Positions 1,140 to 63,839 of a stretch of DNA of 64,000 nucleotides are shown here, one piece after another; the first letter of the stretch is position 1; the number at the start of each line of letters is the position of its first letter. Under the pieces are notes generated by a model. It was not told where the DNA came from. It ran no database searches and saw nothing but the letters and a program-made list of their open reading frames with translations. Origin of the DNA: Mytilus galloprovincialis (lineage: Eukaryota > Mollusca > Bivalvia > Mytilida > Mytilidae); assembly GCF_965363235.1 (NCBI RefSeq), contig NC_134846.1, positions 59,509,121-59,573,120 on the forward strand, in the 5' to 3' direction. Position numbers and translations under genes: made by a program.

Positions 1140-2340
1140 TATAACAAGTCAAAAAGGGTACAACATCACCATTAAATAACTATAAAATATACAAATATTA
1201 GATATTTCGGATAACAGATATCCTTCTTCAATAATAGCACGATGTCAAATGAATCATGTCAATATATTCAAACTGAGATACTTTTTCTAAATCTTGAATT
1301 TATACAATTTAAGCGAACACCACAGACGCTGATACAATTTTAAAATTTCCAAACACGGCGCAAAGATTACTAAGATATGCCAAATGAAAGTAGTTATTTT
1401 CGTTGTGAACTGGCACAACTCTAGATTTCCAAAGGTTGTGACAGTTGAGATGTTATAACTGCATTGAGGGCAGTCCTCAAACAAAAAGATCAAAAATGTC
1501 CTAACCGATCCAGGATGGTATAAAGTAGACAACGGTAGGGCAATTACAACAGAAACTACATATTTAAGCCTCCCAAACGAATAGCAGTCTAATAATGATT
1601 GAAAAAATAAGTTTTATATAATGAGGTAAAATAATTGAACGTGGCAACGTACTTATACATCATCCCGAATCAATGGAAACCTGTAATTTAAACTGTAATT
1701 TTTAAAAATAATTTCGAACTGTAAAGCCAGTACTAAATCCGGCGTTGTTTGAAACAGGTGGTCACAGGAAAATAAAGGACTCGTTCTATGTTTTTTCATT
1801 TATGCCCTCTGGGGAAACTGTCCGTAACTTTCTTATCCAAAATCTTTCCCGAGCGACTCTGTCGACCTTCGACCAACCCTCGTTGTGGTCTATGATTGTG
1901 ATGGTAAGGTTTTTGAGATCAGCTTGTGTGTGTCCAGGTGATCTCAAATGACGACTTACGGGTAGGTCGGGCTTGCAAGTGTAGTCACTTCGATGACCAT
2001 TCATGCGTTTGTTAAATGGCTGCTCTGTCTCGCCAACATATATATATATATATAGACTCTATAAGAATCTACCAACCAGTAATCTTAATAGGTATTGGAT
2101 CATCAAAATTGACAATACTACACAAACAGGAAAAATTATATGAGTCTAAAAGATTGTGTAACAATACCGATAAATAGATGGAAAACAAAACACTTAAAAG
2201 TGTTGAATATCATCGCACAAAGATGGAAAAACTGAACAGATGATATAAAATTATACAATAATTGCAAATATTTCGGCTCAACAAATGGCCTTCTTCGGTG
2301 CTAAAGTTTTAACAATACTGATATATAATGTATAAGGTGT
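1140..2340 (-). mobile_element. Penelope-like element fossil, 3' part with non-coding ends
   Basis: A GIY-YIG-type coding remnant on the minus strand (1786-2059) is flanked on both sides by short related motifs (about 1205-1231 and 2271-2298) that share ATTTCGG and CCTTCTTC and look like degenerate hammerhead ribozyme cores. Repeated non-coding ends carrying hammerhead ribozymes around a C-terminal GIY-YIG domain are typical of Penelope-like retroelements. Only the last part of the element is present; no reverse transcriptase is seen. It is an old, broken copy. The outer limits are approximate. Confidence 0.5.
1786..2059 (-). pseudogene. GIY-YIG endonuclease remnant (Penelope-like element)
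   Basis: The minus-strand translation contains YVGETEQPFNKRMNGHRSD, followed by PVSRHLRSPGH and ERFWIRKLRTVSPEGINEK. This is the second half of a GIY-YIG nuclease domain of the kind fused to PLE reverse transcriptases, and it is clearly related to the second copy at 6169-6720. The remnant begins at a short TA repeat (about 2039-2055) and represents only part of the domain. It is a fossil and is not expected to be functional. Confidence 0.65.
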
Positions 2341-3600: not shown

Positions 3601-5770
<2,170 letters not shown>

Positions 5771-6846
5771 TTCAGATAGCTTCTTCAGGACATGTATAAT
5801 TTTTCTGATATTATAAAAATCCATTTTCGTCCGTTTTGTCTTATGAAAGTGAAGACAGAAAGTTTTTTTACGGGTTGAGCAGCTAATTGGGACATTTTTT
5901 CTCTTTTTTATTTAAACTCTTCTGACGATCTTCCTTCTCTTACCGTTAAAAACGTCTATTAATTCATTTAACGTTAAATGTATACAATACAGTTGTAAAA
6001 TTTTAAACCATTCTACTCACTAGTGAATCCACACTGGGCTTTCAAAGACGCACATAAAACAAAATTGTAACAGCGGGACACCCTTAAAATGACGTTATAG
6101 GCATCGAAATGAGCAAAGTTTTTCATTAAAAAATAAACAAAGCACAAAATCATCTATTTTATTGATTTCTATGGCTTTTTTCCTTTCGAATGATATGCAT
6201 AACATGGATATATGTTGTATAGGATAAGAGCCTGAATTTGAATAACCCGCCTTCGAACCCATATTTCCAAAGTGACACCAATATCGTGCGCAACGTCTCC
6301 GTCTGGATGGAGGACACCCAGTGTTTTTAACCAAAACTTCTCCCGATTCTCTCTTTGCCTATTTTGCCATGTACAATCCTGTTCGATCACAAGGATCTTC
6401 ATGTGATCAAAATCTTTCAGATTGTGATCTGGTAACCTGAAGTGTTGGCTGACCGGAATATACGGTTTTTTTGTGAGGTCACTCCTGTGGCCATTAAGGC
6501 GTTTGTGAAATGGCTGCATAGATTCACCAACATATTGGAGACCACATCTAGGACACTCAAGAACGTAAATCACGTTTGAGCTTTTGCAGTTGACATTGCA
6601 GAAGATCTTGTATGTCTTTTCTGTGGTCTTACTGTGAAATGTTGATGAATGCTGCAATTGGTTGCAACATTTGCAGCGCTTATCCCCACAAGGCTGGCAA
6701 TTACCTACATATATATATATATATATATAGCATGTATATGAGTATTCATAAAACCTTCGTCTCAGGCACACCTCTAGAAAGTAACAAAAAAGAATACTGT
6801 GTAGGCTGAATATATCTAGCTGAACTGCAGGAGGCACCAAGGGCAT
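5771..6846 (-). mobile_element. Penelope-like element fossil, second copy (3' part)
   Basis: The GIY-YIG coding remnant (6169-6720) is followed on the minus strand by about 400 bp of non-coding sequence that ends near a CTGAAGA-type motif (about 5771-5788). The arrangement resembles the element at 1140-2340. The upstream limit again falls at a TA repeat (6713-6729). No reverse transcriptase is visible, so only the 3' part of a PLE is present. It is an old copy with approximate limits. Confidence 0.5.
6169..6720 (-). pseudogene. GIY-YIG endonuclease domain of a Penelope-like element
   Basis: The minus-strand frame gives a Cys-rich linker (CQPCGDKRCKCC, then C-N-V-N-C and LECPRCGLQYVGE) leading into a GIY-YIG fold: VIYVLECPRCGLQYVGES, a Q-P-F-H-K-R-L-N-G-H-R segment, PVSQHFRLPDHN, and ENREKFWLKTL, in which the Glu of the last segment fits the usual catalytic Glu. 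Such CxxC-linker GIY-YIG domains sit at the C-terminus of PLE polyproteins, where they cut target DNA. The N-terminal part is absent and the sequence enters the frame directly from a TA repeat. It is a fossil. Confidence 0.75.
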
Positions 6847-7084
6847 GGTGGGTGCATATTAAACTGTGTATCAGGACACTAATGATATGGTAAAATATTG
6901 TAAGAAGTTGCACATAACTGGTATGTCATCCTCGTGTCTGATGCAGAGGAGTCAGTACTTTTTAAAGTGACACAACTGCAAGAGGCACCAATGGACAATG
7001 CTAATTGACATGCCAAAGTGCACATATTACGAAAAGGATAAAATATTAGCAGTTTGATAAAAAATATCACAAACGGAAAGGTAA
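6847..7084. other. no gene seen
   Basis: Two short direct matches ('tgcaggaggcaccaa' near 6827 and 'tgcaagaggcaccaa' near 6977) suggest repeat-derived sequence. No gene seen. Confidence 0.35.
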
Positions 7085-15700: not shown

Positions 15701-18700
15701 CATTGGGGACTTTCTGATTTGAATTTTCCTCGGAGATCACTATAATCTATTGTTGTGATCTTACATTTTTTCAATAATTGGTTGAAAAACTTTAAGTCCA
15801 ATAATTATTATTGTAGCATTACGGGAAGTTTGTCCAGTCGGGAATCAAACATGATTCTGGAATCAGTGGCAGATCCTGAAATTTTCATAAGGGGTCCACT
15901 GACTTAATAATAGAGGGAAAAAAGGGGGGCTCAAGTCATGCTTCAGTGATTCATTATACAATCAACCAATTTTTCCCTCTCAAGGGGGACCACAAGCGTT
16001 GAGATTTTGACAGTCACTCATCTTGAGATACAATACTGCACCACAATCACCGAGATCTTGACAGTCACTCATCTTGAGAAACAGTACTGCACCACAAGCA
16101 CCGAGATCTTGACAGTCACTCATCTTGAGAAACAATACTGCACCACAAGCACCGAGATCTTGACAGTCACTCATCTTGAGATACAATACTGCACCACAAG
16201 CACCGAGATCTTGACAGTCACTCATCTTGAGAAACAATAATGCACCACAAGCACCAAGATCTTGACAGTCACTCATCTCGAGAAACAATATATGTCATAC
16301 TTTACATCTAATTTTTTCACGATCTTTCATCAATAGATACTTTCGGCATGTTTGCTAAACTTTGAAGATCTTTGAACCTGTGTTTACATTTTTCTTTAAA
16401 CTGCAATATATTCCAGTCTTTCGTGATACGTCTTAGAACGAAATTCATAACAGTGTGGTCGACAGTAAAACGTTTATTAGTAATTGTACTGAAAAGTTTA
16501 CCTTTAACTTGTTTGTCGTGGGCGATGATTGTATGCTCACTCAGTCTATCGGAGGCCTTCAAGTGGGGATTTAAATAATCATTTGTTACAAATTTTGATA
16601 CATAAAATGAAACTTTCTTTTCACAAATCATTTAAGGAATTTATTTTAAATAATTGTTATACCATCACTTACAACAGTTTCACTTTTAAGAATATTAATG
16701 TCCAGAGCTGATATCAATAAATAATAATAATAAAAAAAAAAGTTTATTCATGGTATAAAAAAAAAACAAAAAAACTTTTAAGTTAATAGGGACCCGCGTT
16801 ATTTCAGAAAATATCTTATTGATTAAGAGAACAAAAACTTCTACGTTGTGATCATTTAAGAGTGGCCTTCTATTTATTCAATGCTAACCATGTGGGTTTT
16901 GTTTTTTTTATATACCATAAATCGATTCGTTCATTCAGATATTTGTCAGTTTGCCTTGGTTCTTCAGGTCCAACACACAACTTCTCACGAAATTGGTATT
17001 TTTCTTACAAAAATTACATCCATGTGATGTATTCTTTTCATGGAGAATGAATGTTGCACCTTATTTTATTTGTTATTGGTTTTTTTTTGTGTGTATCATT
17101 GACGTATAAGACAACCCGAATCTTCTTTATTCAAATTTAAAACATACGAGATGACAATTATGACACAAAATAACTAAATTAAACTTACAGCAGAAGAAAG
17201 ATAATGAACATCGCTTTTATAGTCTTCTAAATATCGAAGACGCGTGGTCTTATTAAAAATGATGTAAATTTATAAAGGAAACAACAAACAAAATAGTTCG
17301 AATATTTATATTGGAAAAAGTAACGGTGTGTAAATCATAACAATTATTTTATTTCAATGAAAATCAAACTGTTGAATTTTTTACGCTGCGAGCAAATTTT
17401 TAATTTTGGTCGCATTTTGAAAATCAATAAATCTTGTATTCTTGTTGGAAGCTGCACTGTGTAGTTTATACCCGTTTTTTTTCAATGCCTCACAAATCCA
17501 ACACAGACAAAACAAATGGTAGGTTCAAGAAATATTTGATGCAAACTATACTTTATTGTAGCTTTAACATGGGTAGGCATTATATTCGTGATTATTTTTG
17601 CCCGAGCGATATCGAAAAACTATTATAAAAAGTGTCCTAGTTCAGTGAAAATGTACGTCATACTTATTTCCTAAACAAATAAATAAACAAACATTAATTA
17701 ACATACAACACTACCAAAGGCCAGAGACTCCTTACTTGTATGATTTTAAAAAAAAATGCATCTTTTTAAAACAGTCGAAAACCAAATTGTCTGTCCAATG
17801 GAAAAGTCGAAGCCCAAAAAAGATCAACAGTGCATTATAGAAACATAGAAGCTGGTTGCAAAAGTTGACGACAAGATCTATTTTATAACTTGAGTATGGC
17901 CTAATACTATTAACCTGAAATAAATATATTTATAGCAATTCCCTTGATACGAAAGATCTACATGTTGCCTTGGGCTTTTTTTTCCTTTTTTTTTTTGCTC
18001 TTTGGTTGGGTTTTTGTCTCAATGACAATTCAATTTTCATTCTTATCATAGATATAACTGCATAAAATAAGAATATGAAGTGTGATAGACAATCAGACAC
18101 ATTCTTTCCAGGGACCAACAGGCGTTATCAAGCTATAGGTCCCCGTATGGCCTTCGACCATTAGCAAAATACACACTTTATAGAATGAAAGCTCCAAGAG
18201 GTCTTGGGATGAAAAAAAAACAAACATAAAAGATGAGCGAGAAAAAAATAGGGATACCGCATGGAAATTGGAAAATGGTCCGCAACATTAATTTAGTCAA
18301 CTCACTTAGTTGAAATTAAAGACCCGGCGAATTTTAGCCTTTTGCAATGGATGTGATGTATCATGTTTAAAAAAAATCATGGTTTGTTTGGACATTTTTA
18401 TAAATCAAGTCTTGTTTTTAAATTATTTGCAAGTAAGTTTTAAGTCATGAACAAATAATCACTCACAGAAAGACGTCAAATCCATCAACAAAAGAAAAAA
18501 ATTAATAGACGACCGACAACGCACAGAATATCATGTATGTGTTCCGTACCATATGAGTATTTGGACCATACGCATATATCATGACCATAAGGGTATACTA
18601 ATATGGTCCAACCATACACGTATGGTCCAAATACTCATAAGGTCCGGAACATATTTTATTTGCGATCACAAATGCACGAAGACGTCCATTTCTATGTAAA

Positions 18701-30700: not shown

Positions 30701-33700
30701 TACATTCAAAAATAGGGAAAGATGACATTAAATTCGTTGTCTTTTGTATTTAAACATCTTTGATCAAATAGTAATTAAGTATTATACGTTGTGAGACGAA
30801 GACTATTTTAATAAGGACGTCCCCGATTATGATTAAATTTGGTTGACGTTTTTCATACTAGATAAAGAATATCTATTCGTAATTTTTCGATTCCATTCCA
30901 AGAAACCTTAAATTTGCTGTCAATTTTTTAAAACCTCTCAAGTACAAAAGTATTTTTTCTTTATTCGTAAATATTATATTCCGCTTCGGTGGAGTTTTCT
31001 TCTTCTTCTTCTTCTTCTTCTTCTTCTTCTTCTTCTTCTTCTTCTTCTTCTTCTTCTTCTTCTTCTTCTTCTTCTTCTTCTTCTTCTTCTTCTTCTTCTT
31101 CTTCTTCTTCTTCTTCTTCTTCTTCTTCTTCTTCTTCTTCTTCTTCTTCTTCTTCTTCTTCTTCTTCTTCTTCTTCTTCTTCTTCTTCTTCTTCTTCTTC
31201 TTCTTCTTCTTCTTCTTCTTCTTCCAGGTAAGGAACCGGATTCAGTGCTGAATGTAAATGGTTCCGCGCGAAAACTATACGCAGTGTCGGGCAACACGGA
31301 AAGATTTCTCTTGGCTATTTACAAATTAAATTTAAAACGTTCGCAAAAAATATACAATTAAAATTATTTGCAACTGGTTTTTCCTACTTCCTTTCAGAGC
31401 ATGCCTTCAGGGCAGCCCTAAATCCCTCAACGGTCTTCCTCGGATAGTTCCATTTATTAATTAATACATCAGTTCTGTACATGGCTTTTAAAAGTCTAAA
31501 TCTAAGTGTTCTCGTACATTTTTTCGCCTAATAAAGACAAATAAAAATACTTTGGTAAAGCTATTTCTAATTTCTAAGTTCTCCTTTTTATAGACAACAA
31601 TCAAGGACAACAGGCGTATATCATTTCAATCTGACATATGAATTAAGTTTCCCGTCTTTAACCGAAAATTGTGTATTCCTTTGTAAATTAACTAATTTGA
31701 ATTCAAATAAATAAAAGAACAAAGTATAATTAAATAATTCCACGGCGATCAATTTTTATTTGTCACCAACTTGAATATATATTTTAAATGTGTGTATTTA
31801 ATGCTCCCTTGTTTTATAATTCACTGATCCGAATAGACAGTCACACCTGGCAAGGTGTGCCCTAGAGGCGTGGTTAAATACCGAAGTGCAAATAACAATT
31901 TACCTTTCAACAAGTCATCTACGAGTATTGCCACAGAGCCGTGAATACACACATCGTATCAACTAAGTCATAGCAGAGATAGTAAAAGGTCAATAAGAGT
32001 ACACCAACATATTGCCTTTACAGATTATTGTACTTTACTTTGTTCGCCTTATCAGTCCGAAAATGCATTAATTAAAAATAAATTTATAACTTTTTGTGTT
32101 GTCTACAAAAATAATTCGAATATATACGTTTAACATAGAAAATTTATCTCATGAATATGTACAATTGAACGTCTGTGCGTTTTATCTTCTTATTATCGGA
32201 TGGTTATTAGATAAAACATAAGTCATAGGCGCGCTTATGATTACGTTAAAATATGATTAAAAACCAAGACTTTTAATGATTGTATTTTAAATCCCGGCAT
32301 GCAAAAACCAGGAGAAAACGTCACGACCTACAGGAAGTAGTTAATATTTTTTCATTAAATATTGAATTTCTCCTTTATTACTGCACATATAGCGATAAAA
32401 CTTTGTGAATATATATATTATGTCATAATGAACATATTTAAACCATAAGTTAAAAATCGTGAATTTTCCCTTTAAGGGTCCAGCTGAAATTCTCATCTGG
32501 TTCTCACTGTGTTGAAGATCCATTGGTGGCCTTGGACTGTTTTCTGCTCTATCATGTGGGAAGGTCTTCTCTTTGAAATATTCTAACTTTCCTTTCTCTG
32601 TTCTCTTTTGTATGTTGTATCTGATATGAAAAAGAGATCACTAAGCAAGTAATCATAACCTTTGTCCTAAAGAAGACATTCAATTAACAAAATAACACAA
32701 CAAAATCTACACAGAAATCGTATTATTGAGAAACACAAACCCCAATACTTCTGTCTTGTTTTTGCTGTAAGATATGATCTCATCACTTTGTCATTAAGCA
32801 AACATGTTCCAGTAAACCTCAGGATGAAGAAAGGTAATAAAATTGTTTCTTTGACATGCTGCTTGCCAGCATTTCAGTAGGCAAGTCCATCCCATACCTT
32901 CAAGTTTGCTCCAACCCAAGATTTAGAGTTCCATCACAACCCATTGTGTGGAAATAAATACAACTTTCTAATTGTGATTTATTTGAATTGATGTTTCAGA
33001 GTTATATGTGGGAGAAGAGTTAGAGTAGAACATGCAGTACCGTATGACGAACATCGGAGAGATAAATCAGTCAAAGGAAAAAGACCAGTGTATAGGTAAA
33101 ACATTAAAGTGATTTATCAAAGGGAAAGCAGATTTTTTTGGTTTTTTTAACTCACCTGTCCCGAAGGGCCAAGTGAGCTTTTCTCATCACTTGGCGTCCG
33201 GCGTCATCCGGCGTCGTCCGGCGTCGTCCGTCGTCGTTAACTTTTACAAAAATCTTCTTCTCTGAAACCACTGGGCCAAATTTAACCAAACTTGGTCACA
33301 ATCATCATTGGGGTATCTAGTTTAAAAAATGTGTTCGGTTACCCGGCCAACCAACCAAGATGGCCACCATGGCTAAAAATAGAACATTGGGGTAAAATGC
33401 AGTTTTTGGCTTATAACTCAAAAACCAAAGCATTTAGAGCAAATCTGACAGTGGTAAAATTGTTCATCAGGTCAAGATCTATATGCCCTGAAATTTTCAG
33501 ATGAATCGGACATGCCGTTGTTGGGTTGCTGCCCCTGAAATGGTAATTTTAAGGAAATTTTGCTGTTTTTGGTTATTATCTTGAATATTATTATAGATAG
33601 AGATAAACTGTAAACAGCAATAATGTTCAGCAAAGTAAGATCTACAAATAAGTCAACAAGACCAAAATGGTCAGTTGACCACTTTAGGAGTTATTGCCCT

Positions 33701-36700
33701 TTATAGTCAATTTTTAACCATTTTTCGTAAATCTTAGTTATCTTTTAGAAAAATCTTCTCCTCTGAAACTACTGGGCCAAATTTAACCAAACTTGGCCAT
33801 AATCATCATTGGGGTATCTAGTTTAAAAAATTTGTCCGGTGACCCGGCCAACCAACCAAGATGGCCGCCATGGCTAAAAATAGAACATAGGGGTAAAATG
33901 CAGTTTTTGGCTTATAACTCAAAAACCAAAGCATTTAGAGCAAATCTGACATGGGGGGGAAATTGTTCATCAGGTCAAGATCTATCTGCCCTGAAATTTT
34001 CAGATGAATCGGACATTCCGTTGTTGGGTTGCTGCCCCTGAAATGGTAATTTTAAGGAAATTTTGCTGTTTTTGGTTATTATCTTGAATATTATTATAGA
34101 TAGAGATAAACTGTAAACAGCAATAATGTTCAGCAAAGTAAGATCTACAAATAAGTCAACATGACCAAAATGGTCAGTTGACCACTTTAGGAGTTATTGC
34201 CCTTTATAGTCAATTTTTAACCATTTTTCGTAAATCTTAGTAATCTTTTAGAAAAATCTTCTCCTCTGAAACTACTAGGCCAATTTAACCAAACTTAGCC
34301 ATAATCATCATTGGGGTATCTTGTTAAAAAAATGTGTCCGGTAACTCTGCCAACAAACCAAGATGGCCGCCATGGCTAAAAATAGAACATGGGGGTAAAA
34401 TGCAGTTTTTGGCTTATAGCTCAAAAACCAAAGCATTAAGAGCAAATCTGACAGGAAGTAAAATTGTTGATCAGGTCTCGATCTATCTGCCCTGGAATTT
34501 TCAGATGAATCGGATAATTGGTTGTTAGGTTGCTGCCCCTGAATTGGTAATTTTGAGGAAATTTTGCTGTTTTTTTGTTATTATCTTGAATATTATTATA
34601 GATAGAGATAAACTGTAAACAGCAATAATGTACAGCAAAGTAAGAACTAAAAATAAGTCAGTATGACCAAAATAGTCAATTGACCCCCTAAGGAGTTATT
34701 GCCCTTCATAGTCAATTTTTAACAATTTTCTTAAAATTTGAAGATTTTCAATAACATTTTCCACAGAAAGTACTGTTATAGATAGAGATAATTGTAAGCA
34801 GCAAGAATGTTTAGTAAAGTAAGATCTACAAACACATCACCATCACCAAAACACAATTTTGTCATGAATCCATCTGTGTCTATTGTTTAATATTCACATA
34901 GACCAAGGTGAGCGACACAGGCTCTTTAGAGCCTCTAGTTTATTCATATGTCACAAATAAAAGTAAATTTGAATTGGTTTGATGTTTTATCCTTTTGAAC
35001 TATCTACTTCAGAAGGTGTTTTTTTTAACGCCATTTATGTGCCTTATATTTTCTGGTCTGCGTCTGTTCGTTTGTCCGTTTGTTCGTTCGTTCATTTGTT
35101 GGTTCGTCCATCCGTCTGTCCCGCCTCAGGTTAAACTTAAAGATTTTGGTCGAGGTAGTTTTTGATGAAGTTATTGTCAAATTAAATTGAAAATTATATA
35201 GTACACATGTTCCCTTTGATATGATCTTTCTAATTTTAATGCCAAATTATAGACCCCCCCCCCTTTTTCACGGTCCACTGAACATAGAAAATGATAGTGG
35301 ATGGGGCATCCGTGTACTGGAGACACATACTTGTTATTCATATATTATACTAATATTGTTGAAGTTGATGCTTTGTGGCTCCCTTCATTTCTGATGTTAA
35401 AAAAGTCCTACAACAGAATAAATTGTAGCTCACCTGGCCTGTTAGCACTTTTAGAAATATGTCAATAACTGTTATTGCAAAGTTTTAATTAAATGCATGA
35501 AAGAAAAAAAAGTAAATAGATTTGGATGTATGTATTTACAGACCAGATTCCAGATCACTCAGCAGATCAAGATCAAGGTCAAGACAAAGATTAAATAGAA
35601 GATCAAGGTCAAAGTCACATAAAAGGTTTGGATGTGTGGTTGCTGATATCATTATGATATCCTAGACAAGATAGCTGGCTTTGATATTTTTTCACATTGG
35701 TTCTACAGGGAAATCCACATTGATGAATAATGAAAGACCTTCTTCATTCACATCATTGTAATTTCCTAATTATCTCAAGGAGATTGACAAAACCTACTGT
35801 GGATTCATTATTTTTCGTTGGATACTAATTTTCGTGGATTTCGGGAACCATGAATTCTAATGTACAACGAATTATAAATCTTTTTTGAGAAGGTATGAAG
35901 ACTTTGGCAAAACCATGAAATGAAATTTCCACGAAAATGCAAGTTCTCCTCAATCCACGAAAATTGATAGCCACGAAAATAAATGAATCCACAGTATTTG
36001 TAATGTGCAATTTAACAGAGAGTGTTTTTTTGTAAATACAAAATTTCATAGAAATGTTTCCTTTAACTTTGTGCATTCTATTTTCTGCATTTCCTGTTTT
36101 TTTAAATGATTAACAATTGTTAGAATACCCTTTATAATTTTATAATAAGAATTTGATGGTTTATTTACAGGTCAAGAAGTGCATCAAGAGACAGAAGAAA
36201 ATCAAAATCCAGTACCAGTTCAAGTAAACGAAAGAGGTAACTTAGTGAAATGGTCTTAAAAAAAAGCCAGTAACAATCAAAATAGTGGTGAATACTAATA
36301 TATCTGTGAAAACTGCTTTAAATCAAAGTCCGACAAAATTAAATTTAATGCTAATTCCAACTAAAGTTCAAAGTCTTGTTACATTCCACAGCCTCAGGGT
36401 TCAAGTGGTAGTGTGTTAGTCTGGAGTGTGTGAGGTACGGGGTTAAAAAAAAAACCCTACCCAGTCAAACCAAAGACTTTAAAAATTCACACAACATTAA
36501 GACTGAAACACTGATTGGTTTAGGGACCAACTAATATATTGAAATGATATTACATGTACATGTTTTAGGTCATCCTCCAGATCCAGGTCAAGAGATAGAA
36601 AAAGATCAAAAGAAAGAAGCAGTAAATCAGAGTAAGTTAACAATTACCTTGAAAATACTGAAAAAGAAACCCACCCTTACCTGTAGTTATACCGCCGCTT

Positions 36701-39700
36701 TTGAAACATAGGGGGTATGATTAGTTACAGAGTTTGCAATTGTCCCAATAGGAGAATTAATTTATCGAGTCAAAAAAAATCATATCAGGTAAGGCGAAGC
36801 AAAACCTGATATGAATTTTATTGACCCAATAAATTCTGTATTAGAACAGTTTAACGTTGGTAACGAATTTACCCTGATTTTGTTATATTACATATTAGTA
36901 TATTCAAATTCAATATTTAGGACGATATCAACCAAATGTATTTTAGATATTTAATCTAAAACTGTGAAAAATCAAAAATATAAGTATTATAAAGCAACTC
37001 AAATTTTATTATTTTTATTAGGTCAATGGTTGAAGGGAGATAATTTCAATTGACGTAATAAATAAGGGAGATAATTACAATTGATGTAATAAAAAACTGT
37101 ACTGAAATTTATTAGGACAATATCAGCCAATCAAATTGCGAGAAATTACTCTAAATCTGGATAAACTGTTTTACCACTGGTTGTCCGTCTATATGTGCCA
37201 TTAATATTTATCATCACATCTTTCTCAGAATCTACATCATAAGTTGTAAAATTTGGTTTCAGGGTGAATATAAGTCAGCTATACTCTGTGATGCATTTTC
37301 AGTGAATTACTCAATAACTTCCTGGGCATGCAGGGTATCACCAGTGAACAGTAGCTCACAATTTCACTTGTTTATTACTGCAAAGACTGTTTTACTCATG
37401 ACCATGAAGTCAGTTGGGGACTTTAGCATCCCATTCATGAAAATATCAATGATGAAATCAACATAGTGTTTACATAGGTTACAAAAGTAGTCATGGATGG
37501 AGAGTTGTCTCATTGGAACTCACACAACATCTTCGTATATCTATATGGTAACAGGATTTATCAAAGTGTTAACTAAGGAAAGAAAAGTTTATAAATTTTT
37601 TGGATATCAGGATTCTTATCATATATCGTTGGCTATCATAGGAGAATTTATTCTTACATGACACGGTTATGCATCTGACTTTGTCAATATTATTTACTCA
37701 TACCTGAAAAATGAAAGAAAAACTACAACATATAACTTTAACTTATTGAAAACATTATTTGAAGATTAATTTGATATATACAATAAAATTGAAGAGGTTT
37801 AGGAGCAAGAAATAGATAGATGACAATGTCCCAAAGTCAAATTTACAGTTGAAAAATCACAAACATGTTTTTGTGTTAGGATTTCAATGAAAGTGTCATA
37901 TATGGTTATAATACTGCTACGCTTTTCCTAATTCCTGGTGTCAAATAGATGTATTTACACTTGTATGCAAATTTGTCCACCATGTTGTAAAATCACACAT
38001 AATGTAAACTTTGAAATCAAAATTTGATAATTTAATGTCACAATTAAAAAGTAATTGTATTTTTTACATCGAAAGGTTATGTAAAGCAAGTCTAAGGTTC
38101 TGAGACAAAATTCAGAAAATTACCAAAAGTGAAAATACTCTAATGTAGTAAGTCATTCTCCCATTTACAAAATGGCTAACAAAACAAACAAATCATTATG
38201 CTTTGACTTTATCCAAACTTGATATCTAGTTAGATGTCTTGGTTACAATTTTTTTGTTTTAAAGTTCATTATTTTAAAGAATAATTATACATTTTGTATA
38301 TACTTTAAAGATACTTCTATCAACAATTTTTAAGTTTACATTGCATCATCTATTTCAAAGTATAATTTTTTGGCTTTTTCAGACGTAAATCAAAATCCCG
38401 CTCCAGAAGTAAATCTCCAAAAAGGAAATCCTCAAGGCGTAGCAGATCAAGATCAAAGCATGCATCCAAATCACCAGATAAGAAGAGAAAATCACTAGAC
38501 AAGAAAAATAAATCACCAGAGAGAAACAATGAATCATTAGATGGAAAGAGTAAATCACCTGATAGAAAAAGTAAATCTCCAGAAAGAAGTAAATCTCTAG
38601 ATAAGGGAAGTAAATCTCCAGAAAGAAGGAGTAATTCACCAGAAAGAAGGAGTAATTCACCAGAAACACAGAGTAAATCACCAGAAATGCAGAGTAAATC
38701 ACCAGAGCACAATAATGTCTCAACATCTTCTAATGATTGTTCACCATCACCTACCAAATCTGATAAAATGGACCAGTCTGCTGAAAGGTAATTTTGTTTT
38801 GTAAACCAGCAATTCAATTGCATTTGAATTTTGATTTCTAATAAGGGATCCATCATATTAGTTGTTGACATCAACAGATTATTATTTGTTATGGAGCAGG
38901 AATCCTGCAGTTTACCCCTGATTTTGGTGGGATGATCTTGCTCAATGGTTGGTTTTCTGTGTAGTTTTTCGAGGACTCGTCTTTTTTTGTTTTTTAGGTA
39001 ACTTTCCTTAATTGGCCAATGTGAGCTAGTGTAGTCTTTTGTACCAATCTTATGACTTTAAACCTTAAATAAAGATCTTCTGATCTGTATCCACTTGGTG
39101 TCAATCATTTTATTAGGTATCTAGTTTTAGATTTGTCCCATGTCATATACAGAAATTTATTCAGCAGATATGATTCCAAATACAAGATCTAAAATAAAAA
39201 CATAAATTGACTCTTTTAGGAGTTATTGCCCTTATATGAAGAGTAATAACCAAATAAGGTGTCTTCCCCTTTATCTTGAATACTATTATAAATAGAGTAG
39301 TAGTATGATTAAAGAAGTCTATTGTACAGGCGCTCATTCATATCTCACAGATTATTATAATATGGTTAAGGTTAAGTTTTCTTGTCTTGGTCTGTTTCCC
39401 AATAACTATAACCAATAGGTTAACCATATTTGGTGTATGCTATGATTTTAAGGTAACATGTCTGTCTGTCTGTCTTCAAGGGTTCATATGGCCTTAACTT
39501 CTTGATTTGGATTAGTGGTATGTTAATTTTATGTTAAACTTTTTGTACAACCTTTGTCTCTAAGACTTTCAATGTAAATTCAATCAACATTGTTGCAAGA
39601 CAAATCTAGCTCACATTGACATCTGTTCTTGGGATAGTTTCTTTTATGGTGAAATTTTGAATCATAAAAATTAAAGTAATAGAGCAATAGTACTGCAATA

Positions 39701-55366: not shown

Positions 55367-55563
55367 TTATGCCCAATCTTTCTTGATTTCAAACTTCCAT
55401 GTCCATTTTAGATGTTCGTTTTTATCATCATCAGTAAATAAACTTTCGACCTTGTAGTCTCCCCTTGCTAACATTCCTGAGGGTGCATCTTCTATAGGTG
55501 TAGACCAGGTATGAGCTTCTGCCTTTGGTGGGTAGCTTCCAACCATGAATTTTGATGTATCCA
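55367..55563 (-). CDS. ARHGDIA: RhoGDI last coding exon
   Basis: Acceptor CCATATTTCAG. Two bases complete a Val codon, then DTSKFMVGSYPPKAEAHTW, EDAPSGMLARGDYKVESLF and TDDDKNEHLKWTWKFEIKKD up to WA and TAA at 55367-55369. It matches the C-terminal half of the RhoGDI Ig-like domain. Confidence 0.95.
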
Positions 55564-58500
55564 CTGAAATATGGTCAAATTAAAGTTTAGTATAACTTTC
55601 AGAAAGTTTTATAATAATAAGTTTATTGACATATTAATTGTCATATAACAATTACAAACACATACATACCTTATAGGCACTTCTAAAATATCCTATAAAA
55701 AACTATTACAAGTGTAAATAATAAATTTCTATTATCATAAAAATTATATCATAGAAATTCATTAAGAGAACCAAAAATGTAAAGCTTCAAATTAAGTTCT
55801 TATAGGATCTATCACTTTATCAGCAAACCACTTAAATTCATTGTGAGAGTAATATTCATTTTTTTAACAATTTGCAGTTCTTTATTGAGTCATTCTCACG
55901 AGTAAAAAAAATTCCATTGATTTGTTTTGCTTTATCTGTATGATAATGAATAAACAATTTTAAACAACATATCTTATGCTAATAATGATGAAAATATGCA
56001 TCCATGTGCAGACGTCTTTGCAAAGGACACACTCGATAATTTACATCCAATAAATTTTATGAAAGTATGATGATAAACAACACTGATCATGCTGGCAAAA
56101 AAATAAAATGAATGAAGGAAAAAGAATTTCTCAAGTAAATAAAAATAATACCAAAAAGCTTTTTTTTCATACACAACCAAGCAGGAGTGTTACAACATTT
56201 AACATGACAATGCCATTGCGTGCATACATTGGTCCAATGGATATAATTCATTGCATTCCACCCTTTACTCTGGACATTAGATAAAAAAAGCTGCACAAAA
56301 TCTATGAACGTATATTTCTGGACAAAAAGTATCAAGTATACTTGTCAAAATTTAAATCGTGCATAAAAGATTTAATAATGTAAAATGCTAGCAGTAATCT
56401 TGCAAATATTTTGAAGTTCTCGTATTAAATTTTTAAATTTTGTTTTTAAATCTGTCATATAAAACTATGTCAACAGCTTACTTCAAGACTTGTAGCTATA
56501 TTTCTTTAAGAATTCCATAATGTGATTTAATTTTATTCTCTTTTTTTCATGAAATACAATATTGTGCTTTAATTGCCAAACTAATATAATATAAAGACCT
56601 TGCAGAGTATTTTTTCCAGTGAATTCAGTTTATATGTATAGTCAAAACTATGATATTTATGTATATTTTATTTTACTGCAAAACCAATTCTATTTCTACT
56701 TTTAAATAATAAGATAATATATTCAAAGGGATTTCGTGCTAACATCCATAGTAAATTGTAACATAAAGGGGTTTCACAAAATCTGGTTACGCCACTTGCA
56801 TGCACAAAATACCTTTAACACCCTTTCTGTATGTTTTCTGGATATATTTTAACCCAGAAACAAGTTCTCCTTTCTGGACAAAGAACTTTACCCTCATTTT
56901 ATATGGGGCAGCTTCCTTTATTGTGAACACCTGTTCTTTTAATTTGGATAAATCACCTGTAAAACAAATATACAATTTAGTCTTTACCTTTGATGCCTTT
57001 TCGATATGTTTTCTGGACATATTTTAAACCTGAAACAATTTCTTTTTTCTGCACAAAAAATTTGACTCGCATCTTGTATGCTGATCCTTCTTTAATTACA
57101 AATACTTGGTCTTTTAATTTTGCTAAATCACCTGAAAAACAACAATTTGCAATAAACAATTAGAACAATTATAATATGTTTTGTAATGTTTAACAAATCA
57201 AACTTGAAAGCAGGAAATATATTATTACATGTACATCCTGGATATGGATCGAACATTGATAAAAAATGACAAAAGCTCTACTTGACTTCTCTTAATATCA
57301 ATTTCCTCATCATTTCAAATGTAACTGCTGAAAAATAAACTATATACATGAAGAGGTCAACAAATATTTTTATACCATTATGTCAAGTTATTAACATTCT
57401 TAAGTCTATTACTTTTCTAACCTAAAAGTCGTGTGTAAAGATCAAGGTCAATATTTAGGTAATCTTTTATCCAAAAATGACAAATAAAACAAAACTAAAA
57501 CCAATTAAAATCATGGTAGACTGACTTTCAAAAACTTGATACTTGAAATCATTAAATGAAACAAGTCAAACTTTTAAAAGCAGCATTTTTTTTTATTTCC
57601 TTTTTATACAAAATTTATAATGAATTTAGATGTGTTTCTACAATTGTATCAAAAGTAGCGTCTCATCATTTTACATGTAGGGATATAAATAATGACGATA
57701 CAATTTTGTTTATCTACAAATCAAATTATAAAATTGAATTTTATATGTCATTAAGTCAACTTTTTTTTTATTTATTGGAGGTCACAAGAGACAGACAAAT
57801 GAATGTTTAGAAAGAAAATATTCTCATGTACTACCAGTGATCTAACTGCCAAAAGTCATTAACCTGCAAAAATAAAATTTTGAGAAACACATTCAAAGGA
57901 TATATGAATGTTGTTAAATGCAGGATTGCCAAAATACATGAATGCATATAGCAGTGTATAAGTCAACAAAATATTGATTTTTGGTTATTTTTGAACTGAC
58001 CTCCTTTTTCCATTGTGTAAGAATATAGCACTGTTAGTTTTGCAAATGAAGTCTGAGAACCATGTGTTTTGGACCACCTACATGACCTAATTCATGATAT
58101 TGGTTACTAATAAGTCAGAGGTCAGAAACACCAACTTTTCATATTAATTTTATCTCTTAGTATGAAATACAAACATAAATAAAATCTCCATCTAATGAAA
58201 TAGTCTTTAGATAAAACAAAAACCTCATGATCATGTTATAAAACATTTTGTCAACTGCTGTCAGCAGGAACCTTCTTGTATGTAATGTTACTCATAAATC
58301 ATATCATTTTTTCCCTTTAAGACATTATCAGAAACTTTGTCATACATATTGCTTCTCATGGTACAGTGTTATTACCTGTTAGATCTAATGTTACATCGTC
58401 TCTATCTTGGACAACTAATGCCAACTCTGTTACTATAACTCGACGTGGGTCATTTGGGACTGAAATTTAAAAAATTGTTGTCAATAAACGATTAATATAC

Positions 58501-59403
58501 ATTATAACTATTTAATAATGACATTACTTGCAGTATACATGTATGTTGGACTGTTCAGACAAACTCATAAAAAAAGACATGCCAATAAGTACCCCAACAC
58601 ATTTCATAGAAATACTTTAAACTACATCTACATATATATCCTATATAAAGTTATGAAACATGAGTGGTATTGGTGTATTATGGATTTATTCTGATTATTT
58701 TATTTGGTGGAGTGAGGAAATATTGTATTTTTGTGATCATTTAATTTAATTGTTTTTCAATGTTTTCATACAACTACAAGCCTTTTTAAAATTTGTACTT
58801 TGTTGAACATTTAAATTTCCAGTTTTCTGAAACCAACAAAAATTGACATCCCACGAACATGACAAATAATTATGATTGCAGTACACAGTCTATCTATTTA
58901 TTACTAATCTGTCACTGAGAATAATCAATCATTTATTTGACTGTATCAAAAATCTAAAAGAGGCAAATCCCTGAGTATGATTAGTAATAACAAATCCTTG
59001 TTGTCCTAAACAACCTATATCATTAAAAATTTAACAACTTCAATAGAGAAGTGTATCCTTTCAAATCATGCTTCATGTTTTACCAAAAAAACATTAATAA
59101 AAATTTGATTGATATAACAATTTAGATAGTAATAATTCCTTTAGATCAATGGAGTGCTAGTGATAAGTATTGAATCATCATTTTCTGAGTTTCTTTACAT
59201 TTTAATATATACATAAACGTACATGGATCTTGAGCATCCCCACCACCTAACAAGGCCTGTTTATATTTATTGAGACTCTCATCCTCCTGATCTTTCTTTA
59301 AGATGTTTTCCAATGGTTCAAACTCTGGTGGTTTATATCCAGGAGCATTAGTATCCTCCTCATGTACATCTTCTGGAGCTGGATTTGCCTCAGATTCTGC
59401 CAT
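55367..59403 (-). CDS. ARHGDIA: Rho GDP-dissociation inhibitor (RhoGDI)
   Basis: Exons on minus: 59223-59403, 58376-58459, then either 56988-57131 or 56813-56956, and 55367-55563. This gives 606 nt and 201 aa with one middle exon (human RhoGDI1 has 204 aa). The N-terminal arm has NAPGYKPPEFEPL and DDESLxKYKxALLG-like DQEDESLNKYKQALLGG. The Ig-like domain has LDLTGDL, KEG..YKMRVKFFVQ, EIVSGLKYVQKTYRKG, FMVGSYPPKAE, GMLARGDYKV and FTDDDKNEHLKW.WKFEIKKDW. RhoGDI extracts prenylated Rho/Rac/Cdc42 from membranes and holds them GDP-bound in the cytosol. The middle exon is present as two alternative copies. The gene is head to head with FDXR. An acceptor-like CTTCCAG just before the ATG suggests a 5' UTR intron. 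Confidence 0.96.
55564..56812 (-). other. RhoGDI intron between the proximal duplicate exon and the last exon
   Basis: 1249 bp of AT-rich sequence; no further copy of the duplicated exon and no other gene found. Confidence 0.6.
56813..56956 (-). CDS. ARHGDIA: RhoGDI alternative exon, proximal (3') copy
   Basis: Acceptor TTTGTTTTACAG and donor AAAG|GTATTT; 144 nt. It encodes residues 90-136 as DLSKLKEQVFTIKEAAPYKM then RVKFFVQKGELVSGLKYIQK and TYRKGVK. Phase and length are identical to the copy at 56988-57131. Compared with human RhoGDI1, the pocket residues Phe102 and Tyr110 are kept, Ile122 is Leu, and the basic residue before Glu121 is Gly. Confidence 0.9.
56957..56987 (-). promoter_or_regulatory. 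31-bp spacer between the duplicated RhoGDI exons
   Basis: It starts GTAAAG (donor of the distal copy) and ends TTTTACAG (acceptor of the proximal copy). An ACTAAAT branch-point candidate falls within the first 12 nt. It is too short to be spliced as an ordinary intron, so the two exons cannot readily be joined to each other. Confidence 0.85.
56988..57131 (-). CDS. ARHGDIA: RhoGDI alternative exon, distal (5') copy
   Basis: Acceptor TTGTTTTTCAG and donor AAAG|GTAAAG; 144 nt. It encodes residues 90-136 as DLAKLKDQVFVIKEGSAYKM then RVKFFVQKKEIVSGLKYVQK and TYRKGIK. It is closer to vertebrate RhoGDI (KEG, EIVSG) than the proximal copy, so it is the likely ancestral form. The two copies differ at 10 of 47 residues. 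Confidence 0.93.
57132..58375 (-). other. RhoGDI intron upstream of the duplicated exons
   Basis: 1244 bp of AT-rich sequence. The 84-aa plus-strand frame at 57556-57810 is AT-driven and not called. Confidence 0.6.
58376..58459 (-). CDS. ARHGDIA: RhoGDI coding exon 2
   Basis: Acceptor AATTTCAG and donor ACAG|GTAATA; 84 nt. It encodes PNDPRRVIVTELALVVQDRD then DVTLDLT, aligning with the human segment PNVPNVVVTGLTLV...LELDLTG. Confidence 0.94.
59223..59403 (-). CDS. ARHGDIA: RhoGDI coding exon 1 (start)
   Basis: ATG at 59403-59401 (AAAATGGCA). It encodes MAESEANPAPEDVHEEDTNA, then PGYKPPEFEPLENILKKDQE and DESLNKYKQALLGGGDAQDP; donor CCAT|GTACGT. This is the flexible regulatory arm that contacts the switch regions of Rho GTPases. 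Confidence 0.95.
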
Positions 59404-63395: not shown

Positions 63396-63598
63396 AGAAT
63401 GTAGTTGGATTGATGTCACATTGTCAATTTCCAAACATTAATAATTTGATTGTACTAGTTTGAAGTAAGTGTTTAAATTTATCTGGTTATTATACTTTTG
63501 AATTTTCATATGAACTAATAAGTCAATAAATTAGCAGGAGATTTGTTACAATGTATTACATCATACTTTATGTTTTAATTCAGACCACACCACAAGAC

Positions 63599-63745
63599 AT
63601 GCTGTTCATCTTACCTAGACTTTGCAGACAACACCTGAGAAGTTATGTCCAGTCACATATACGCCAGCTGACCACTGGACAACCAAATGTTTGTATAGTA
63701 GGGGCAGGTCCAGCAGGGTTTTATACAGCTCAACAAATTCTTAAG
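63599..63745 (+). CDS. FDXR: NADPH:adrenodoxin oxidoreductase, mitochondrial, first coding exon (partial gene)
   Basis: 49 codons from the ATG at 63599 to donor AAG|GTATAT. Residues 1-27 are a basic, Ser/Leu/Arg-rich presequence (MLFILPRLCRQHLRSYVQSH) suited to mitochondrial import. Residues 29-49 read [20 protein letters not shown] K, the FAD-binding Rossmann start (GxGxxG) of ferredoxin reductase, close to human [21 protein letters not shown]. The enzyme passes electrons from NADPH through FAD to ferredoxin for iron-sulfur cluster and steroid chemistry in the matrix. An acceptor-like TTTTAATTCAG 15 nt before the ATG suggests a 5' UTR intron. The remaining exons lie beyond the window. Confidence 0.93.
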
Positions 63746-63839
63746 GTATATCAACTTAAAATACATGATTACAAATCTCTTTATATTTAAAGTGTAATGT
63801 ATGGTTGCCTATATTCTCTTACATCCACTTAATATGAAC

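Follow-up and report, generated by a model that had tools for sequence, protein, structure and literature searches.

A RhoGDI gene of Mytilus galloprovincialis with two old tandem exons that are probably spliced mutually exclusively

The window analysed here is a stretch of 64,000 nucleotides (C9:59509121-59573120) from the 1.38-Gb Mytilus galloprovincialis assembly, and its minus strand carries a gene for RhoGDI, a controller of the Rho-family switches of cell shape. The parts of the gene discussed below are as follows, with positions numbered within the window.

59223..59403, minus strand: first coding exon of RhoGDI, from ATG to the donor CAT/GTACGT, with an N-terminal RhoGDI match
58376..58459, minus strand: second coding exon of RhoGDI, 84 nt, ending in phase 1 at the donor CAG/GTAATA
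56988..57131, minus strand: putative alternative exon A, 144 nt, GDLAKLKDQVFVIKEGSAYKMRVKFFVQKKEIVSGLKYVQKTYRKGIK, with the donor AAG/GTAAAG
56957..56987, minus strand: spacer, 31 nt, with its sole CTAA branch-point candidate at +8 to +11
56813..56956, minus strand: putative alternative exon B, 144 nt, GDLSKLKEQVFTIKEAAPYKMRVKFFVQKGELVSGLKYIQKTYRKGVK, with the weaker donor AAG/GTATTT
56799..56804, minus strand: TGCATG at +9 in the intron that follows exon B, a match to the RBFOX motif
55367..55563, minus strand: last coding exon of RhoGDI, to the stop TAA, scoring 85.3 bits to PF02115

Several other features share the window. Adjoining RhoGDI on the opposite strand, an open reading frame at 63530-63787 (+) contains PNVCIVGAGPAGFYTAQQILK and resembles the start of adrenodoxin/ferredoxin reductase (FDXR). 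Reading frames at 1789-2058 (-) and 6172-6858 (-) carry the motif YVGE...F.KR.NGHRSD, resembling the GIY-YIG endonuclease parts of Penelope-like retroelements, and one at 38366-38788 (+), rich in RS/SP repeats, looks to us like an SR-type splicing-factor region. A diverged tandem repeat occupies 33286-34525 (+), with three similar reading-frame pieces bearing ...PRWPPWLKIEH.GKMQFLAY.SKTKA..., and simple-sequence and minisatellite arrays with several frames open on both strands lie at 30876-31358, 15950-16294, 4580-4857 and 790-1124.

Direct reading bears out the original prediction that two exons of 144 nt, equal in their phases (1-1) and each with AG and GT sites, stand 31 nt apart. This is the arrangement of tandem-duplicated mutually exclusive exons: adjacent homologues of equal length and phase with intact splice sites. 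The copies agree at 109 of 144 bases and, as had been counted, at 37 of 47 whole codons, or 38 of 48 residues when the split Gly codon is included; the 35 base differences are distributed over codon positions 1, 2 and 3 as 10, 3 and 22. Compared with each other within the window by BLASTN, A and B give an E value of 1.3e-24, and in a sampled ungapped scan of segment pairs inside the gene the top three scores all belong to the A/B pair (109-111 of 144, against a median of 43). No convincing third copy of the exon was found in the 64-kb window, where the next best TBLASTN match has E 0.75 and the next best BLASTN match has E 0.007 over 50 bases. Codons 36-42 of A (57027-57007, minus strand) and of B (56852-56832, minus strand) form a run of seven consecutive codons with no synonymous difference and 20 of 21 bases identical, which is perhaps a shared splicing enhancer or a trace of local gene conversion and may also be chance.

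The differences between the two exons follow a coding pattern. Among the 28 codons that differ, 18 still specify the same residue in both copies and 10 do not. A pairwise codon model, purpose-built for this small sample of 48 codons with codon frequencies taken from the RhoGDI gene itself, gives a maximum-likelihood omega of 0.016 with dS saturated; it rejects omega 1, at which both copies would be neutral (2dlnL 47.6, p 5e-12), and omega 0.5, which corresponds roughly to one neutral copy (2dlnL 29.0, p 7e-8), and places omega 0.1 just beyond the 95% limit (2dlnL 4.2). The YN00 method in Biopython gives dN 0.137 and dS 0.975, and the point estimate of dS is unstable, at about 1 or more on both estimates obtained. 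Both copies thus carry the mark of protein-coding constraint and, with the neutral models rejected, both look protein-coding and old. Of the 47 sites aligned with human RhoGDI1, 27 are identical to it in A and 26 in B; at the ten sites where the copies differ RhoGDI1 agrees with A at three, with B at two and with neither at five. Human GDI2, at the nine differing sites covered, agrees with A at five, with B at one and with neither at three, which makes B the more diverged copy at those sites, and at human positions 103, 107 and 122 the residue of A is the one found in both GDI1 and GDI2. A and B share one residue that is extra with respect to human.

Genome-wide searches, in which the best candidates were scored, place RhoGDI at this locus only. 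Exon A has two matches and the whole B isoform five, all of them here, and the PF02115 model has five, four at this locus and one below threshold elsewhere; among the scored candidates from the 1.38-Gb genome, no further RhoGDI gene or retrocopy rises above the family cut-off. Because every match above the cut-off lies at one locus, the sequence offers strong, if not absolute, indications of a single-copy gene without retrocopies. A stretch on C6 considered as a second RhoGDI has E 0.286, below the cut-off, and contains a TGA; its open reading frames did not alter this picture, and it was taken as a chance match. Outside this genome, no relatives were confirmed in viral contigs or prokaryote genomes, as expected.

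Isoforms containing A or B are both open and 201 aa long, and both belong to the Rho_GDI family (PF02115), scoring 217.6 and 210.3 bits, respectively, against a curated cut-off of 26.5, with the B isoform 7.3 bits below the A isoform; in the PDB they match chains of RhoGDI1 and RhoGDI2 (25 distinct sequences each). The original prediction also held that the reading frame could not police splicing errors. This is so for double inclusion, which would give 249 aa in frame, and for double skipping, which would give 153 aa in frame, but not for retention of the 31-nt spacer, which would introduce a premature stop after 139 aa. The pair therefore does not belong with exons policed by frame and decay, in which double inclusion shifts the frame.

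The spacer itself (GTAAAGACTAAATTGTATATTTGTTTTACAG) contains a single CTAA, at +8 to +11, in agreement with the proposed candidate branch point about 10 nt from the donor of A. Since the whole spacer is 31 nt, the distance from donor to branch point would be below 31 nt wherever the branch point falls; the gene's remaining potential introns measure 763-1424 nt. In human work, donor and branch site had to be about 50 nt apart, and a separation of 35 nt prevented assembly on one pre-mRNA (available text of PMC6692369), although limits derived from human and HeLa systems may not be those of this animal. The threshold of about 50 nt for the steric class, which also comes from the available portion of PMC5740500, exceeds the entire spacer, the branch point being a candidate. 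The ultrashort human introns discussed in the accessible part of PMC8363638 are 43-65 nt long. A caveat is that introns with median lengths of 57 and 66 bp are spliced in annelids, according to what was available of PMC7854359. Local RNA folding around the spacer gave nothing dependable.

With about 10 nt between the donor of A and the candidate branch point, as against the roughly 50 nt needed in human work, splicing of A to B appears very unlikely. We infer that U1 at the donor of A and U2 at the branch point of B (candidate A at +11) could not share the spacer, so that exon 2 would join either A or B and A would be unable to join B. A and B are so close that a transcript can probably keep only one of them, and one RhoGDI gene would then probably give two protein versions. 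As two constrained coding exons that are not plausibly spliceable to each other, A and B are best explained, from the sequence, by mutually exclusive splicing through steric exclusion. The original prediction of mutual exclusion is to this extent upheld, in that both copies are constrained and coding and A-to-B splicing is implausible, and its overall interpretation is partly supported. We consider it likely that A and B arose by an old tandem duplication of an exon and are spliced mutually exclusively, in what is apparently the only RhoGDI gene of the animal.

Such an arrangement has known counterparts. Exons 4a and 4b of vertebrate OGDH are, like A and B, tandem duplicates separated by branch points near the upstream donor, but in human OGDH, by the available text of PMC7969005, the donor is separated by 25-41 nt from the branch points, the intron contains a large polypyrimidine tract, and including both exons would break the frame. 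In RhoGDI the corresponding distance is about 10 nt for the candidate in its 31-nt spacer, and A and B together keep the frame. Alpha-tropomyosin is similar in that exclusion has been attributed to the distance from donor to branch point (cited in the part of PMC6692369 available); it belongs to another protein family, and its cause is reported to be an unusual branch-point location, whereas the RhoGDI spacer would be too short for any position. Human tandem duplicated exon substitutions and mutually exclusive clusters, in the survey text available, are likewise neighbouring homologous exons of which one is used at a time, and steric interference may operate in 57 (9%) of the 629 human clusters (PMC5740500, as available). 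The letters 'GDI' are absent from the main text of the human exon surveys PMC5740500 and PMC9741552. In vertebrates, RhoGDI variety comes from the separate genes GDI1-3 (PMC8622166, available part), and the present genome appears to have one gene with two alternative exons; human RhoGDI1 and RhoGDI2, which are of the same family as the A and B isoforms by sequence, differ between themselves in this segment as well. The openly accessible literature searched, including papers that mention RhoGDI and mutually exclusive exons in unconnected passages, yielded no case of mutually exclusive exons in RhoGDI, which agrees with the original statement that no such report was known. Tandem-duplicated mutually exclusive exons and their steric enforcement are thus already known, and the RhoGDI instance would be new within that literature.

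The two donors differ in strength, scoring 6.73 for A and 3.56 for B and ranking 8th and 22nd among 255 GT sites in the gene, on a matrix of textbook frequencies. This would weakly favour exon A, with its stronger donor, as the probable default and B as the regulated choice. Use of exon B may depend on an enhancer, possibly an RBFOX-type protein bound to the TGCATG located at +9 after it, which matches the RBFOX motif. The 4.55-kb stretch scanned has no TGCATG other than this one, and the same strand of the 64-kb window has 24, so a chance occurrence is quite possible.

By alignment, the A/B segment corresponds to residues 92-138 of human RhoGDI1, a slight correction of the range of about 93-139 given originally. 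The ten differences fall at human positions 95, 99, 103, 107, 108, 109, 120, 122, 129 and 137, which include all of those predicted (103, 107, 120 and 122), with the placement at 120 hinging on the position of the gap, because the segment has one residue more than the human protein. Seven of the ten replacements are conservative (A/S, D/E, G/A, S/A, I/L, V/I and I/V). In the alignments, human Phe102, Tyr110 and Glu121 are unchanged in both copies, the acid at human 109 is absent from both (Ala or Pro), and the residue adjoining Glu121 is Lys in A and Gly in B. One difference lies at 109, two lie just before it and two flank 121, so that five of the ten fall in a zone reaching two residues to either side of 109 and of 121, which takes in 10 of the 47 sites (hypergeometric p 0.024, which is only suggestive because this zone was chosen post hoc, with the data already seen). 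The original prediction places Phe102 and Tyr110 of human RhoGDI1 in the prenyl pocket; the literature searched contained no passage on this, the one paper that came up being about RabGDI. In the available text of PMC8622166, E109, D140, E163 and E164 of the RhoGDI1 lipid-binding domain are the residues that grip the Rac1 tail, and E121 apparently contacts switch 2, with E121K impairing extraction.

Because the changes affect 107-109 and the residues flanking Glu121, the A and B proteins would, less certainly, differ in their grip on Rho GTPases. It is plausible but unproven that the isoforms differ functionally, and the different Rho-family binding originally proposed is in this sense suggestive only, with half of the changes near 109 or 121 and most of them conservative. 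More tentatively, and in our judgement somewhat short of an even chance, the apparently single-copy RhoGDI may use sterically exclusive exons that rebuild its Rho-contact patches (107-109 and around Glu121) to switch which Rho-family GTPases it takes off membranes, or how strongly it does so; the two exons would then form an exon-level counterpart to the separate RhoGDI genes of vertebrates.

Mutually exclusive splicing could also be real while both proteins do the same job, the choice between them being neutral or a matter of expression only. For the functional part of the reading we think this rather unlikely: the conservative nature of 7 of the 10 replacements and the retention of Phe102, Tyr110 and Glu121 in both copies would fit it, but half of the replacements sit no more than two residues from 109 or 121, which PMC8622166, in the part available, links to contact with Rho, and two constrained copies have been kept through saturated dS, a retention that suggests that the choice of exon matters. 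One copy might be a relic or unused exon, with a single isoform made, and B, with its weaker donor, its score 7.3 bits lower against Rho_GDI and its poorer match to human GDI2 at the differing sites, would be the candidate; yet an omega of 0.5, close to one neutral copy, is rejected (2dlnL 29.0), and frames and GT/AG sites are intact in both copies, which stand about equally far from human GDI1 (27 versus 26 of 47 sites matched), making this reading improbable.

The spacer contains GT, CTAA and AG and its removal would preserve the frame, as expected if it were spliced as an ordinary ultrashort intron with A and B both included in a 249-aa protein. With a length of 31 nt and a branch-point candidate about 10 nt past the donor, it is far under the limits in the portions of the literature available, however, and a compact beta domain would not be expected to tolerate a 48-aa repeat; we regard this outcome as highly improbable. 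Bivalve genomes are highly heterozygous, and the pair might in principle be two alleles or a mis-joined repeat. Such an assembly artefact is barely credible given a nucleotide identity of only 76%, differences in a coding pattern, unlike flanks around A and B, and a location within a contig of 94.7 Mb; the best candidates scored included no further copy.

RhoGDIs hold much of the Rho GTPase pool of the cell. If one gene does make two forms by a physical either-or rule, the mussel gene would offer a natural swap experiment on the GDI residues that set GTPase preference, in which just 10 of 201 residues change, and its 31-nt spacer would rank as a very compact example of steric exclusion. The interest of the case lies in the gene being apparently single-copy and the spacer so short.
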